In this document: positions 57,648 to 64,000 of the stretch, piece after piece | Layout: every line of letters starts with the position of its first letter | Position numbering within the stretch: position 1 is the first letter of the stretch | Notes under the pieces: generated by a model | Databases searched by the model: none | Seen by the model: the letters and a program-made list of their open reading frames with translations, nothing else | What the model was told of the DNA's origin: nothing | Position numbers and translations under genes: made by a program | Origin: Polynucleobacter sp. HIN5 | GTDB lineage: Bacteria; Pseudomonadota; Gammaproteobacteria; Burkholderiales; Burkholderiaceae | Length of the DNA: 64,000 nt | Direction: 5' to 3' | Assembly: GCF_030297555.1 (NCBI RefSeq) | Contig: NZ_AP028136.1 | Span: forward strand, 310,001 to 374,000

Positions 57648-57687
57648 GGGCCCATAGCTCAGTTGGTTAGAGCAGAGGACTCATAAT
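57648..57687 (+). pseudogene. Displaced 5' half of tRNA-Ile(CAU)
   Basis: These 40 bases begin with acceptor GGGCCCA, the D-arm and the anticodon arm of the functional tRNA at 57856, then break off. The first 38 are identical to 57856-57893. The fragment reads CATAAT after the anticodon, the order of an uninterrupted anticodon loop, where the functional gene has intron instead. It has no T-arm or 3' acceptor strand, so it cannot make a tRNA. It probably marks an old insertion junction. Confidence 0.85.
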
Positions 57688-57855
57688 GGACTTAACCATG
57701 AGGTCTAGCAGTAAAGACCTCAATGATTTCAAGCGGTTAGTGGTGAAATGAGTGGTTTAAATTCACTACACACCGCTTACACACCAACGGGTTTTTCATG
57801 GTGTGTAGTAAATAGGGTTTTAGTGTGGTTTTTGGTGTGTTAAAAAAGTTAAGTA
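57688..57855. mobile_element. Short spacer between tRNA 5' halves, likely remnant of an integrated element
   Basis: These 168 bases lie between two copies of the tRNA 5' half. They hold a 7-bp hairpin (GAGGTCT with AGACCTC, 57700-57721) and four copies of one heptamer: ACACACC at 57768 and 57779, and its complement GGTGTGT at 57800 and 57834. Repeated short sites beside a tRNA break point look like arm sites for a tyrosine integrase. No gene fits here, so an element end or deletion scar is the best reading. Confidence 0.5.
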
Positions 57856-58153
57856 GGGCCCATAGCTCAGTTGGTTAGAGCAGAGGACTCATAGCGAAAG
57901 TTGTGCACCAGATAGCGAAAGCTGCTGTGTGAATGGTGTCAAATTCGGTGAACGCTAAAGGTAGTTAAAAACTACATATGCCAACGCCGAGCCAAGCGGA
58001 ATCGCAAGATTCTGAAGGTGTAGAGACTAGACGGCACCCACCTAAGTAAGGATTTATAAATCTTTATACGGTGAAGGCATAGTCCAGGGAGTTAGGAAAC
58101 TAACACAAACCGGAATCCTTTGGTCCCAGGTTCAAGTCCTGGTGGGCCCACCA
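57856..58153 (+). tRNA. tRNA-Ile2 (anticodon CAT) interrupted by a group I intron
   Basis: The exons are 57856-57892 and 58114-58153. Joined, they give a 77-nt cloverleaf: acceptor GGGCCCA/TGGGCCC, anticodon stem GAGGA/TCCTT with loop CTCATAA, T-arm CCAGGTTCAAGTCCTGG, and an encoded CCA. The CAT anticodon would be read as Met, but the body (TTTGGTC variable region) resembles the minor Ile tRNA whose C34 is modified by TilS to read AUA. The intron sits between positions 36 and 37, next to the anticodon. A terminator follows at 58162. Confidence 0.92.
57893..58113 (+). ncRNA. Group I self-splicing intron in tRNA-Ile anticodon loop
   Basis: A 221-nt intron without ORF whose core closely matches, from memory, the Azoarcus tRNA-Ile ribozyme. 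P1 pairs exon CAT with GTG (57903-57905), giving the U-G pair at the 5' splice site. P2 has a GAAA loop (57917-57920). P3 is GGTGTC (57935) with GGCACC (58033). P4 is CGGTG with CGCCG (57985). P6 has a GCAA loop (58004-58007). P7 is GACTA (58025) with TAGTC (58080). P8 is CACC with GGTG. P9 is GTTAG-GAAA-CTAAC (58091-58104). The terminal G is 58113. Confidence 0.92.
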
Positions 58154-58161
58154 GAATACAT

Positions 58162-58196
58162 AACCCTGACCAGTAATGGTTGGGGTTTTTGTCTTT
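58162..58196 (+). terminator. Terminator of tRNA-Ile, first copy
   Basis: AACCC pairs with GGGTT with an inner ACCA/TGGT stem, followed by TTTTTGTCTTTT. It stands nine bases after the tRNA CCA. A similar but different hairpin follows the displaced 3' half at 60913. Confidence 0.75.
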
Positions 58197-58324
58197 TGAG
58201 TATTACTAATGCGTATATCATGCCTGAAATAGACCCAATTTTGACTCGCATTGACTGCAGTCAATCATGTTTCAGACTTTGCTTTCTATGATTTATTCAA
58301 CGAGTAAAAGAGTAAAAAGAACAC

Positions 58325-59965
58325 ATGGAATTCGAAATACCAGAAACCCTAGCCAATACGCTTCTTGGAATGATCGATGAGGATACGCTGCTTGCGAAGC
58401 GGCTTAGCGAGTACGGCCTTTCCCGCGGTAAACGTGTGGTATCCAGCCGACTTTTCGACGCCACCTCATTGAACACGCTCTACGGCCTGTGCCGCACGGC
58501 CGACGAGCGTGAGCTGATGTTCCAAATGATTGCGCTGGACAATATCCACGCCGCGCCGGCTGCCCGAAAAATCCCAAGCTTGGAGCATCTGATCCCTGGT
58601 CTGATCGCTTGGTTGTCGCGCGACATGATCGATGGCTGGCTCTACAAACTTGGCAAGGACGGTGTGTTGCTGCCCTGGCTGGTCCATTCTATGCGCTATG
58701 TGCAGCCTGTCGATGGCGCAGCTTACGTCATCATCGGCCTTCTGGCTAACACCTTGCAGGCCGCAGATCGTGAGCCAATTAACGATCCGAGGTTAAAGCG
58801 CACCGGCATGACCTACAGCATCACCTTTTATGCCGAAGATATTCAAGATCGCACGATTCCCGAATTGATGACGGGTTATGGTTACTTTAAAGAATGTGCA
58901 GAATTCAAAAACGAATACGAGACACACTTAAAGCATTTCATGCAGATACAGCCGAAGTTTGGTGCGCAGTTTACTGTTTCTGGCACTGTCTGGATGTCCA
59001 GCGAAGGACATCGTCCACATCTCGAATGCGTGCGGCTGCAGGCAGGCACAGCCGCCCGCTGCGTCAATGACGAAGAGCTGCTAGAACGCCACTTTGACAC
59101 CACCGCCGATGCAGGCTTCTGGCGCGGAAGCGGCATCAGCGAGGGTTTTGAGAGGATTCCCCAGCATTGCTATCTACATCTATTCCACCTGGATTACCAC
59201 CGTAATGTATGGGTGCATGTGCAAAATGTTAAGACTTATCGTTACAAACCAGAATTGCGTGACAAGCTGGTTCTGCCGCATGCTCATCGCGACCTGATTG
59301 ATATCTTGACCGCTGATCGTAACTTCCTAATGGAGGACATTGTCGAGGGTAAGTCGGGCGGTACAACCATCCTTTGCAAAGGCGCGCCTGGCTTAGGTAA
59401 GACGCTGACAGCAGAGGTCTATGCCGAGGTCGTCGAGAAACCTTTATACCGCGTACACTCTGGTCAACTCGGCGTGACGGCAAGCTCAGTGGAAGCCAAC
59501 CTTTCGAAAATCCTGCGGCGCGCAGCACGCTGGGATTCAGTACTGTTGCTCGACGAGGCCGATGTCTACATTCGCCGCCGCGACAATGATCTCCAGCACA
59601 ACGCTATCGTAGCTGAGTTTCTGCGTACTCTCGAGTACTTTAACGGCTTGCTATTCATGACCACCAACCGCGTAGCCGATATTGATGACGCCGTCTTGTC
59701 GCGCTGCATCGCTATCATCCAGTTCGAGACACCGACGCAAGAGCAGGCGAAACAACTATGGAAATCGCTAGCGCAGCAGTTCAACACCGAACTGCCCGAT
59801 GATCTAGTTGAGCGCTTGATAGTAACTTATCCAGCTGCTAGCGGCCGCGATATCAAGGAGTTGCTCAAGCTGACGCTAAAGTTTTGCAAAGGCAGGAATT
59901 TGTTACTGAACGAAGAAGCATTTGCTCAGTGTGCAGCTTTCCGTAGCATCAGTAAATCCGTCTAA
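58325..59965 (+). CDS. AAA+ ATPase of unknown function
   Basis: A 546-residue protein. The first 340 residues match nothing I know. The AAA+ module has Walker A GAPGLGKT at 353-360, Walker B VLLLDEAD with Asp410-Glu411, sensor 1 MTTNR at 445-449 and an arginine-finger-like LSRCIAI, then a helical lid domain. It resembles FtsH/Vps4-type core domains but lacks a protease part. It begins the cassette after the intron-bearing tRNA and is followed one base later by a hydrolase gene. The partner protein and substrate are unknown; a remodelling or defence role is possible. Confidence 0.85.
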   Translation: MEFEIPETLANTLLGMIDEDTLLAKRLSEYGLSRGKRVVSSRLFDATSLNTLYGLCRTADERELMFQMIALDNIHAAPAARKIPSLEHLIPGLIAWLSRDMIDGWLYKLGKDGVLLPWLVHSMRYVQPVDGAAYVIIGLLANTLQAADREPINDPRLKRTGMTYSITFYAEDIQDRTIPELMTGYGYFKECAEFKNEYETHLKHFMQIQPKFGAQFTVSGTVWMSSEGHRPHLECVRLQAGTAARCVNDEELLERHFDTTADAGFWRGSGISEGFERIPQHCYLHLFHLDYHRNVWVHVQNVKTYRYKPELRDKLVLPHAHRDLIDILTADRNFLMEDIVEGKSGGTTILCKGAPGLGKTLTAEVYAEVVEKPLYRVHSGQLGVTASSVEANLSKILRRAARWDSVLLLDEADVYIRRRDNDLQHNAIVAEFLRTLEYFNGLLFMTTNRVADIDDAVLSRCIAIIQFETPTQEQAKQLWKSLAQQFNTELPDDLVERLIVTYPAASGRDIKELLKLTLKFCKGRNLLLNEEAFAQCAAFRSISKSV

Positions 59966-59966
59966 G

Positions 59967-60683
59967 ATGGCAACGTTTGACACATCTATCCTTGGAGATT
60001 TGCTACTGGGCCGGCTCAGTTTTCGACCCGGCAACTTGCCCGACAAACAAGCCTTGCCCGCTGGTCGTCACAACCTGGGCATCGCTAGCGAGCGTGATGC
60101 AGTATTGATCGTGCCGGACGATCTCCAGCCCGGAGTTCCAGTTGCTTTACTTGTGATGTTTCATGGGGCTGGTGGCAGTGCTGATAAGGTATTGCCATTT
60201 TTGATCAAGCATGCGCGTCAGCATGGCTTTTTGCTTCTGTTACCGCAGTCTCAGTTTCCAACTTGGGACTTGGTTGTGGGTGGTAATGGCCCAGACCTAG
60301 AGCGGCTGGATAAAGCATTGCACGAAGTAGCCTCACGTTTTTATATCGATCCATCCCACTTGGGGTTTGCTGGGTTTTCAGACGGAGGCAGTTATGCACT
60401 GTCAGTAGGACTGACCAATGGCGACTTTGTTAGCCACGTGATCATTTTTTCTGGGGGCTTTATGTCAGTCCTTCAGCAAAATGGTGCGCCCCGCATTTTC
60501 ATCGCCCACGGTTTGGAAGACGAGCAACTGTCAATTGAAACTAGTGCGCGTCCTCACGTAACCAAACTTAAGGCTGCAGGTTATGACGTCACTTCTTTGG
60601 AATTCAAAGGTCCGCACCGCATCGAGCCAGCAGTGGTTTCGGTAGCAATGGATTTTTTCCTAAAACCAGCGACGCCACATTAA
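59967..60683 (+). CDS. Alpha/beta hydrolase (esterase/phospholipase-like)
   Basis: A 238-residue hydrolase with the nucleophile Ser138 in GFSDGG, oxyanion region LLVMFHGAGGSADK, an Asp candidate in GLEDEQL near residue 190, and His217 in GPHRIEP. It belongs to the carboxylesterase/phospholipase or LpqC-like group and has no signal peptide, so it is probably cytoplasmic. The ATG at 59967 lies one base after the AAA+ stop; an in-frame start at 59922 overlaps that gene. The tight coupling implies joint function with the ATPase. Confidence 0.85.
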   Translation: MATFDTSILGDLLLGRLSFRPGNLPDKQALPAGRHNLGIASERDAVLIVPDDLQPGVPVALLVMFHGAGGSADKVLPFLIKHARQHGFLLLLPQSQFPTWDLVVGGNGPDLERLDKALHEVASRFYIDPSHLGFAGFSDGGSYALSVGLTNGDFVSHVIIFSGGFMSVLQQNGAPRIFIAHGLEDEQLSIETSARPHVTKLKAAGYDVTSLEFKGPHRIEPAVVSVAMDFFLKPATPH

Positions 60684-60772
60684 CAAGCCGTGCTTAGAAT
60701 GCAGAAATTCTCATAGAACCGACAAACAGTAGTCAGCGGGTTGGCGATATTGCCAAAAGTCTTGTTTATTGT

Positions 60773-60905
60773 TGAAGGTGTAGAGACTAGACGGCACCCA
60801 TCTAAGTTGAGCAATCAATATGATGAAGGCATAGTCCAGGGAGTTAGGAAACTAACACAAACCGGAATCCTTTGGTCCCAGGTTCAAGTCCTGGTGGGCC
60901 CACCA
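60773..60905 (+). pseudogene. Displaced, diverged 3' half of the group I intron plus tRNA-Ile 3' exon
   Basis: Bases 60773-60865 repeat the intron from just before P7 to its terminal G, and 60866-60905 repeat the complete 3' exon with CCA. It matches 58013-58040 and 58072-58153 exactly, but the P8 region differs in length and sequence. Its P8 pair is CATC with GATG in place of CACC with GGTG, a compensatory change. No 5' exon, P1-P6 or anticodon is present, so it cannot splice by itself. Confidence 0.9.
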
Positions 60906-60912
60906 GAAAAGC

Positions 60913-60999: not shown

Positions 61000-62304
61000 A
61001 TGAAGCCCTTGATAAATCCATTCACTTTTGCTCAAAGCCTTATACAAGAGAGAGGCGGCTGGACTGTCGCTGTTATAGAGACAAGCATATTTTGGCCTCC
61101 CCAAATTCAATCAGTTGAATACGAAGGCAAAAATTTCATTCTTATGCCTTATGAACAAGCGCAAGGGACGCCCACTCCAACATTGCCAGCTATTGCGTTA
61201 AAAGCAGACTCATACAATTTAAGTGTCGATGCAGCTAAAAAAGTAATTTTGGAATTTGCTAGTGCGCTAGCTTGGCTTGAAGGTGGGAAGCTTGAAATCG
61301 TACATTGGACGGGTGGGGACCGCCCAAGGTCAATGGGGATCATGCGAAATAATGGAATTTCAGATTATTTAGATCCAGAGCATATTCCGCAGCATTTAAG
61401 TGAGAACGCAAGAACTGCATTGGCATTTTTTAGAGAGGGTATTTCTCTAGAAAATCCATTCTATTCATTTTTCAGTTTGTATAAAGCATTTACTGTAGCA
61501 ATATCAAATGCCAAGAGTCGTGGTATTTGGATGAATGCAAATAAAGGAAATCTTGACGATCATCTGGCTGTTAAAAGATTAAGAGAGCTGGAAGTTGATG
61601 GACGTGATGTTGGGGAGTATTTATATAGTGGATGTAGGCATGCAATAGCTCATGCCGATACAGAGCCCTTCGTTAATCCAGATCAGTCTGAAGATTTAAT
61701 TGAAATTTCTAAGAATTTACCCCTTATTAGGAATTATGTTGAGCTAGCTTTAGAAGAAAGTTTTGGAATTAAAAGGCTAAAGACAATATATAAGGAGCAT
61801 TTATATGAGTTGGGTGGATTTAGGGGTCTCGTAGATTCAGAGGCGTATGCAATCCTTAAGAATGGTGGAACATTAGATCGAGATTTAGCTATTAATATTC
61901 CCGACAACTTGAGATTCGTCGCGCGAAGAGAGCAACATTTTTATGCCCTAGAGTCATTTAACGCCGATACCTATGCATTGACGAAAGGCGGCATTATTCT
62001 TAATTTCAAATCTGCAAATGAGCTTATAAAGCTACGAATTTATTTGGATTTTCTAAATGAAAAACTAAGATTTGATCCGCTTCATGATTTTAATGTCACC
62101 TCAAATAGGAGCGATCAATCGGCAATAAGTAATGAAATTACTGCGCTTGAATTTACAAGATGTATCTTGTCTAATGGGGTGTTAGAAATCTGGGATAGTA
62201 CTCATAGGCTTGGGTGTACGGAGGCATATATTCCAATAAATGCTATGGTTAATTTTGAGTATTTTGATGATCAAATTAATGAGTTAAAGGGAATGCTCAA
62301 ATAA
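61000..62304 (+). CDS. Hypothetical protein with HEPN-like RHAIAH motif
   Basis: A 434-residue soluble protein. The middle region is helical (NPFYSFFSLYKAFTVAIS) and contains YSGCRHAIAHAD with Arg213 and His218, the Rx4H spacing of HEPN ribonucleases. Such domains are often toxins or phage-defence effectors. The remainder resembles proteins annotated as MauJ-like, of unknown function. It stands alone beside an integrase. Whether it is a nuclease is inferred from this one motif. Confidence 0.65.
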   Translation: MKPLINPFTFAQSLIQERGGWTVAVIETSIFWPPQIQSVEYEGKNFILMPYEQAQGTPTPTLPAIALKADSYNLSVDAAKKVILEFASALAWLEGGKLEIVHWTGGDRPRSMGIMRNNGISDYLDPEHIPQHLSENARTALAFFREGISLENPFYSFFSLYKAFTVAISNAKSRGIWMNANKGNLDDHLAVKRLRELEVDGRDVGEYLYSGCRHAIAHADTEPFVNPDQSEDLIEISKNLPLIRNYVELALEESFGIKRLKTIYKEHLYELGGFRGLVDSEAYAILKNGGTLDRDLAINIPDNLRFVARREQHFYALESFNADTYALTKGGIILNFKSANELIKLRIYLDFLNEKLRFDPLHDFNVTSNRSDQSAISNEITALEFTRCILSNGVLEIWDSTHRLGCTEAYIPINAMVNFEYFDDQINELKGMLK

Positions 62305-62977: not shown

Positions 62978-64000
62978 ATGCCGCAAATCGTTGAAACTAC
63001 CCATGAACTGCTGCCTAGAGAGCTAGTCATATATCGCCGTGAGCGGAGTGGCATTTGGCAATGTCGCTATAAGGTTGCTGGAGTCTGGCAAAGAGCTTCT
63101 ACTAAGCAGCGCAAATTAGAGTTGGCTAAAGATCGGGCTAAAGAGATCTTTTTTGAAGCGGAAATTCGTAATCGCTCTAATCTGCCAGTAATAACCCGCC
63201 GCTTTAAAGATATCGCCAAGTTAGCTGTTGAGCGTATGGAGCAAGAATTGTCTGCTGGTAAAGGCAAGGTGATCTATAGAGACTACATTCGGGTGATTAA
63301 GGATTACATCATTCCTTCATTGGGCAATCGCATGATTACTAATATTGACTACGAAGCTTTAGAGCAATTTGATCGTGATCGCATTGAGTTTATGGGCAAG
63401 GAGCCCACTTCTAGTACTTTACATACGCAAAATGCGGCAATGAACAGGGTATTTGATGAAGCAGTCATTCGGGGCTTTTTAACAGAGGCTAATCGTCCTA
63501 AGCTGGTAGCAAGTAGTGGTAAGAAGAGCGATCGCAGACCTGCTTTTGAATTGTATGAGCTAAAAGCGCTATTAGCTAATTTAGAACCTTGGATTGATGC
63601 TGCTCGCAATCTTGCTAGCCGTGAACGCAGATTAATCATGCGCGACTATATTGAGATGTTGGTAGATACTGGTGCAAGACCTGGTATTGAGTTATTGGAT
63701 ATTAAGTGGAAGCAAATCCGCTTCATGATGAGCCCTGCGTCCACTTTGACCGATCAAGTCGATGAGCACGGCAATCGAATTGAGGTACATAACCTAAACC
63801 GTAGTTGTGAACTTACTGTTACTGGAAAGACTGGCACCAGACAGATTATTGGAAGGCAACCCACAGTAAAGGTGCTAGAGCGCATTGCTAAAAGAAACTA
63901 TGGAGTAGATAGCTCATTAACTGATCCACTCAAAGACTTAATTAATCCTAATAATGAAGATTACGTTTTTAGGACTAAGGACAAAAAAGAGGATGTAAGC
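62978..64000 (+). CDS. Tyrosine recombinase/integrase, 3'-truncated by window edge
   Basis: An open frame of 341 codons to the end of the window. The N-terminal half has the arm-binding and core-binding character of phage integrases (RRERSGIWQCRYKVAGVW; YIRVIKDYIIPSLGNRMI). The catalytic domain begins with VDTGARPGIELLDIKW, giving the first Arg at about residue 234, then the strand SCELTVTGKTGTRQII. The HxxR and Tyr motifs lie beyond the window. It probably moved the island that ends off the right edge. Confidence 0.85.
   Translation, partial: MPQIVETTHELLPRELVIYRRERSGIWQCRYKVAGVWQRASTKQRKLELAKDRAKEIFFEAEIRNRSNLPVITRRFKDIAKLAVERMEQELSAGKGKVIYRDYIRVIKDYIIPSLGNRMITNIDYEALEQFDRDRIEFMGKEPTSSTLHTQNAAMNRVFDEAVIRGFLTEANRPKLVASSGKKSDRRPAFELYELKALLANLEPWIDAARNLASRERRLIMRDYIEMLVDTGARPGIELLDIKWKQIRFMMSPASTLTDQVDEHGNRIEVHNLNRSCELTVTGKTGTRQIIGRQPTVKVLERIAKRNYGVDSSLTDPLKDLINPNNEDYVFRTKDKKEDVS

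Follow-up and report, generated by a model that had tools for sequence, protein, structure and literature searches.

A truncated group I intron copy at tRNA-Ile2(CAU) in Polynucleobacter sp. HIN5 is probably the relic of an island-borne replacement tRNA gene

Introduction

Group I introns favour anticodon loops, and the tRNA-Ile2 gene is one that the cell cannot do without. The closest described relative of the intron reported here, the Azoarcus-type group I intron of tRNA-Ile(CAU) (Rfam RF00028), is a small intron of this same tRNA, and its insertion site after the anticodon is presumably the one used at our locus.

At the anticodon-centred 'A' sites described in the available part of the Islander paper, a tyrosine integrase splits the tRNA gene, a fragment is displaced to the far end of the island, and island sequences restore the target. 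The word 'intron' is absent from the main text of that paper (text search). In tmRNA genes, according to the accessible part of a further report (PMC11915505), a group I intron can occupy a tRNA-like gene that is also targeted by islands, although these introns sit in the T-loop and are reported separately from the islands. A literature search that covered few subscription papers returned none that connects a group I intron in a tRNA gene with an integrase site.

Here we analyse a locus of Polynucleobacter sp. HIN5 within a window, meaning the whole stretch of 64,000 nucleotides under study (G000:C1:310001-374000), from a genome consisting of a single contig of 1.88 Mb. The complete intron in the window gives a full match to the Rfam family. 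Unlike the Azoarcus-type intron, it belongs with its tRNA to mobile islands, lies inside the presumed integrase core, and is accompanied by a second copy that comprises the 3′ half only. With the Islander 'A' sites, as the available part of that paper presents them, our island shares a tRNA gene apparently split by a tyrosine integrase and a fragment at the far end. It differs in that it brings a second, entire tRNA gene, in which an intron usually interrupts the att core. In contrast to tmRNA introns, the insertion is in the anticodon loop.

Results

All features lie on the forward strand, and positions are those of the window unless they carry the prefix G000:C1. The locus comes after rpoD, which was recognised by reading its translation. 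It opens with a 5′ half of tRNA-Ile2(CAU) (57648-57686) that forms the attL of an island and ends in the presumed integrase core CTCATAA (57680-57686). This half repeats the complete gene's 5′ exon at 100% identity, and all 41 such sites found read CTCATAA at this point. The island's left arm follows (57687-57855) with TTACACACC-type repeats, presumably the arm sites of the integrase; the arm motif occurs in 37 of 41 attL-type upstream regions and in 19 of 23 others. Next comes a complete replacement tRNA-Ile2(CAU) gene (57856-58153) with a 5′ exon (57856-57892), a group I intron (57893-58113) and a 3′ exon (58114-58153). The intron has the core and helices of its family, scoring 58.3 bits over the whole RF00028 model (gathering score 50), and its P8 hairpin (58039-58073) has the stem CACC/GGTG. 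A DNA search combined with an intronless pattern found this to be the only complete tRNA-Ile2 gene in the genome.

Between the two intron copies stands a module of two genes, one for an AAA ATPase of 546 aa (58325-59965; Pfam AAA, E 1.7e-15) and one for an alpha/beta-hydrolase-like protein of 237 aa (59970-60683; Pfam Abhydrolase_2, E 3e-4, below the cut-off). Within this pair (58325-60683) the ATPase has IetA-like PADLOC matches and its neighbour has no PADLOC match. The module is followed by the 5′-truncated copy (60767-60905), which runs from the 3′ strand of P6 to the end of the intron (60767-60865) and on through the tRNA 3′ exon (60866-60905). Beyond it lie a cargo ORF of 434 aa that is MauJ-like (61000-62304; Pfam PF17419, E 5.8e-20) and the tyrosine-recombinase integrase of the island, which starts at 62978, reaches the window's end at 64000 and continues to G000:C1:374339. 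The integrase matches PHROG_1 integrase at E 9e-31 and Pfam weakly; a PDB sequence search with it gave only matches at E 0.19 or worse. Further copies of the 3′ exon lie outside the window at G000:C1:390936 (85%) and G000:C1:400218 (100%). Genes for a multicopper oxidase, a MerR regulator, a P-type ATPase and an AcrB-type protein stand between the integrase and G000:C1:390936, and we therefore call this island metal-resistance-like. The layout is that of a tRNA-integrating island, with a 5′ half at 57648, a 3′ exon at G000:C1:400218 and an integrase at 62978. A short ORF at G000:C1:379613-380071 (6613-7071 of L005) shares 145 identical nt with the integrase and 67% identity over 82 aa; it is possibly a truncated second integrase inside the metal island.

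The second copy was recovered by DNA search with the intron-tRNA gene at G000:C1:370773-370908 (window 60773-60908) with 90% identity and an E value of 3.1e-49, so that it is not a chance match. Positions 60773-60905 contain the 3′ half of the group I intron of tRNA-Ile2(CAU), together with the tRNA 3′ half. No difference separates the copies in the first 27 nt (58013-58039 and 60773-60799) or in the last 84 nt (58073-58156 and 60825-60908), and identity with the complete copy (58013-58156) thus holds everywhere outside P8. The P8 stems are CACC(58039-58042)/GGTG(58070-58073) in the complete copy and CATC(60799-60802)/GATG(60822-60825) in the second, whose hairpin (60799-60825) also has a different loop, with the distal hairpin TTGA-GCAA-TCAA. 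Folded alone, each P8 segment forms a 4-bp stem and a distal hairpin. Downstream of the tRNA 3′ ends the copies diverge again, with ccagaatacataaccctg after one and ccagaaaagcaaacccca after the other. The parts that they share show strong conservation across the parsed introns of the genus, and their identity consequently says little about the age of the copy. The second copy lacks a complete catalytic core, its homology beginning at the 3′ strand of P6, and it has no RF00028 match at the gathering score.

These results bear out part of what a first-pass annotation had proposed. Alignment confirms that core and 3′ exon are the same in both copies and that P8 differs in stem and loop; the second P8 does pair, as its isolated 4-bp stem indicates; and the copy does lie at an insertion boundary. 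The annotation was also right to set aside a recent tandem duplication, in which near-identity throughout and a shared downstream flank would be expected, since both P8 and the 3′ flank differ.

Across the genus, a full or partial intron match is present in 85 of 186 genomes and an uninterrupted tRNA-Ile2 in 96 of 186 (pattern with at most one mismatch), some genomes holding the intron form as well. Upstream context was counted for 64 full introns with at least 400 nt of upstream sequence, the other 5 of the 69 having less. A second tRNA 5′ half lies 197-256 nt upstream of 41 of these 64, every one ending in CTCATAA, and 19 of the 64 have upstream an attP-like junction at CTCATAA, where an island's right arm meets a left arm, the arrangement that stacked islands would produce. 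Altogether, 60 of the 64 full introns have an island junction upstream at the very core, CTCATAA, that the intron interrupts. The TACACA-type arm motif accompanies 37 of the 41 introns with a doubled 5′ half and all 19 attP-like ones. Four introns (L025, L028, L154 and L157) have no island junction upstream, and three of them (L025, L157 and L028) stand behind rpoD-like sequence; in these four, either the native tRNA has apparently acquired the intron or the arm has disappeared.

The annotation had suggested deciding which P8 form is native to the locus and which is mobile. This contrast proved unworkable as framed and was dropped, because an island junction precedes 60 of 64 introns and the tRNA is uninterrupted in 96 of 186 genomes; both P8 forms therefore look like alleles of mobile islands. 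Further, an attL followed by an intact intronless replacement tRNA occurs in 7 of 186 genomes (L275-L281) and at the longer spacing in 0 of 186, while intron loci at the longer spacing alone number 34, in 33 of 186 genomes. These counts do not bear out the idea that a replacement tRNA must contain the intron. Among records with titles other than Polynucleobacter, a doubled 5′ half occurs in 5 of 32 loci, namely in Gulbenkiania mobilis, a Sterolibacterium MAG, a gammaproteobacterial MAG and two contigs from uncultured beta-proteobacteria, of which one equals G200:C116 of the genus set in length; loci in which the 5′ exon went unrecognised (13 of 48, all records) are uninformative either way.

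Integrase relatives were taken at 50% identity or more, and the tRNA 3′ exon was sought within 4.5 kb upstream. Such an exon was found at 16 places, of which 13 have a complete intron, two an intronless 3′ exon, and one is the truncated copy of the window. The 13 complete introns sit 0.1-2.1 kb upstream of the aligned integrase start, with a recognisable 5′ exon in 12. In G178, for example, an integrase 95% identical to ours has a complete intron-tRNA gene 2.05 kb upstream of the aligned start. This prevalence suggests that the truncated copy stands at the place of the island's own intron-tRNA gene. The closest integrase relatives (L073 and L074, 97%) have upstream only a 3′ exon without an intron. 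In nine further integrase rows the upstream sequence covered, 0.3-2.3 kb long in eight of the nine, contains no 3′ exon. An intact copy of exactly this island, with the MauJ-like ORF, behind a full intron-tRNA gene was not found among these relatives.

Of 122 parsed intron rows that were kept, 69 were counted as full. They contain 29 distinct P8 segments, all of which fold alone to a 4-bp stem and a distal hairpin. The P8 segment of the truncated copy recurs letter for letter in nine of the 69, on differing backgrounds. Linkage between intron modules was measured as Cramer's V against 1000 label shuffles. A first table held 68 distinct full introns (one duplicate combination dropped), with hairpin types assigned by motifs chosen by eye. 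A second held 65, leaving out three divergent introns (P8 stem GCC) that the first retains, as well as the flank type 'other'; types seen fewer than three times were dropped pair by pair in both.

In the second table the P8 loop proved independent of P9 (V 0.28, shuffled mean 0.30, p 0.61, n=57) and not significantly tied to the 3′ flank (V 0.36 versus 0.30 shuffled, p 0.11, n=54) or to P6 (V 0.32 versus 0.29, p 0.17, n=61), and P9 is likewise unlinked to the 3′ flank (V 0.25 versus 0.28, p 0.66, n=50). The positive control, loop against stem of P8, gave V 0.83 (0.27 shuffled, p 0 in 1000 shuffles, n=63). Links exist on the 5′ side: P5 with P6 (V 0.48, p 0), P2 with P5 (0.51, p 0.006), the P8 stem with P5 (0.60, p 0.002), P6 (0.53, p 0) and P2 (0.44, p 0.002), and P5 with the P8 loop (0.38, p 0.03). 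The loop is thus free relative to the 3′ side and only partly free relative to the 5′ side. Its tight link to the stem and its independence of P9 indicate that P8 is exchanged as a block, and the pair in the second copy therefore need not have co-evolved there. Most likely this P8 is a standing allele, a common variant swapped in or brought with the island, which did not evolve at the locus. The annotation had read the paired change as the mark of a separate functional intron lineage. Descent from an intron of the complete kind gains support from the identical segment in nine full introns; the further step to a separate lineage is not supported, given the independence of P8 loop and P9 and the lack of a significant tie to the 3′ flank. 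A paired change in P8 is no proof of a whole separate intron lineage.

Exchange of 3′ modules can also be followed at shared junctions. G193 aligns to window 58227-60909 as one continuous stretch of 89% identity that crosses the junction between module and truncated copy, but its P8 is CGCC..GGTG, unlike that of the window, which suggests that 3′ modules were exchanged after the junction had formed. Other truncated copies differ in their breakpoints, and some breakpoints recur with a different P8, P9 or flank. One junction is found at five loci with three P8 loop types, two more loci sharing it, and another at three loci with three P9 forms. At the recurrent junctions G013/G148 and G039/G018 the P8 is identical or almost identical between the two loci, so that exchange is not visible in every group. 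Many truncated copies begin in the core, which raised the possibility of a site-specific attachment site within the intron; this was rejected because the breakpoints range from P6 to P9 and, by reading, are free of arm repeats.

Two relatives are informative about the complete copy. G191 has an intron-tRNA gene identical over 294 nt and the same module start; the truncated copy is absent, and core genes are met about 2.4 kb beyond the module. In 100-nt bins, identity to G191 is 92-100% for 57700-58800 and 83-94% for 58800-60600, and the higher value over the tRNA region points to its recent exchange. The single intron of G068 shares rare alleles of P2 and P6, in its 5′ half, with the complete window copy, and its 3′ half matches the truncated copy at 98.5% identity over 137 nt.

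A different group I intron is found in G121 at CT^CATAA, 3 nt from the CTCAT^AA site of the first, in the same 7-bp core and the same island layout. It scores 35.6 bits against RF00028, below the gathering score of 50 (E 2.6e-7), and the core letters common to both introns suggest that they may be distant relatives. This type is matched in full or part in 14 of 186 genomes, in G134 and G230 over the 48 nt of shared core only. Of its 11 full copies with a 5′ exon, five have a doubled 5′ half 197-256 nt upstream, two an attP-like core and the remaining four neither junction by the patterns used. The CT^CATAA intron is seen in L183 (about 930-1180) and also in G156, G001, G019, G050, G157, G146, G025 and G043. 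One intron, L263/L035 (G029:C59), is a hybrid of a type-1 5′ part and a type-2 3′ part, probably broken since its predicted exon joins do not match; G029 also has two intronless tRNA-Ile2 pattern matches.

Discussion

The second copy is probably a dead, 5′-truncated relic of the intron-bearing replacement tRNA gene of the metal-resistance-like island. Islands of this genus of freshwater bacteria integrate at CTCATAA in the anticodon loop of tRNA-Ile2(CAU), splitting the host gene, as the attL, attR and attP-like junctions there show; the tyrosine integrase would be the catalyst. Such an island brings a complete tRNA-Ile2 about 200-250 bp inside its left end, replacing the lost gene, and this replacement is usually interrupted by a group I intron inside CTCAT^AA that, judging from its family, should self-splice. 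In the HIN5 genome a single left end (57648-58153) supplies the only complete tRNA-Ile2. The second island, with the integrase at 62978, would have lost the arm, the 5′ exon and P1-P6 of its own intron-tRNA gene on arriving behind the ATPase/hydrolase module, probably through a deletion that spared only the 3′ half at 60767-60905. Splicing of the relic is not expected, as P1-P5, the 5′ strand of P3 and most of P6 are missing. Its P8 would differ through modular exchange of P8 hairpins between island introns, plausibly by RecA-type recombination in the conserved stretches on both sides of each hairpin. Deletion, excision, splicing and recombination are all steps that we infer from sequence. Counting against a deletion relic are the intronless upstream exons of L073 and L074, the failure to find the same island intact among its relatives, and the intron of G068; the association of the P8 stem with P5 and P6 (V 0.60 and 0.53) counts against wholly unlinked modules.

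The G068 intron is also the main support for an unlikely alternative, that one intron was split by insertion. A circular or transferred segment, comprising a 3′ half with P8-CACC, the tRNA 3′ exon, the ATPase/hydrolase module and core, would have entered a resident G068-like intron by recombination in its conserved core. The complete copy would then be chimeric, and the second copy would be the 3′ half of the resident intron, displaced by the segment. G068 combines the 5′ alleles of the one with a close match to the other, and the recent exchange of the tRNA region seen against G191 fits as well. However, the relic's P8 family (30/68) and P9 allele (11/68) are common, and a chance match in both is expected in about 7% of pairs (the product of the two allele frequencies). 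In G068, moreover, two paired positions of P8 are different and so is the 3′ flank; G191 lacks the relic, although its complete intron is identical and the module is present; and the module/relic junction is old enough to occur in G193 too.

Duplication of the tRNA 3′ half in tandem at the locus, followed by divergence of P8, might be read from direct repeats 2.8 kb apart that are identical outside P8. We reject it as highly improbable, since stem and whole loop differ amid 111 identical flanking nt, the 3′ flanks differ, and the occurrence of the relic's exact P8 in nine of 69 introns elsewhere largely refutes local divergence. Only slightly less improbable is a CIME-like, cis-mobilizable cassette, with the 2.6-kb module moving as a unit and the 3′ halves of tRNA and intron together serving as its att site. 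The module does occur at 18 places in 17 of 186 genomes with at least 86% identity, and relics with recurrent junctions border other cassettes. Yet a CIME has attL and attR without a recombinase, and this module, neither of whose annotated genes is an integrase, has as its right end a truncated intron that, by reading, lacks the TACACA-type arm repeats of ordinary attR ends. The breakpoint of the relic also varies among genomes with the same module (G000/G193, G013/G148, G056/G171, G195), and in G121 and G192 the module stands between an ordinary attR and core genes. The reading as a deletion relic of the metal island remains our preferred one.

Why islands should carry a small intron at this place is a wider question, to which we offer a tentative answer, somewhat less probable than its converse. 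The intron may act as a shield: by splitting CTCATAA it would keep the replacement tRNA gene from being recut by the integrase, splicing would restore the tRNA at the RNA level, and frequent exchange between stacked islands would yield interchangeable hairpins. Two different group I introns, at CTCAT^AA and CT^CATAA, break this core in islands built alike. Given the preference of group I introns for anticodon loops, the shared location alone is no proof of such a role. The islands with an intronless replacement tRNA (L275-L281, 7 of 186 genomes) are a natural control for the idea.

Conclusions

An odd repeat in the window thus becomes a marker of island stacking at an essential tRNA gene, and a seemingly 'compensatory' pair can be an imported allele instead of a product of local evolution. 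The survey connects integrase target sites with the group I introns of tRNA anticodon loops and offers a possible reason for keeping a small intron, which may guard the replacement tRNA against the integrase of the same island. If that were true, the two P8 forms in the window would be a snapshot of an interchangeable set of hairpins.
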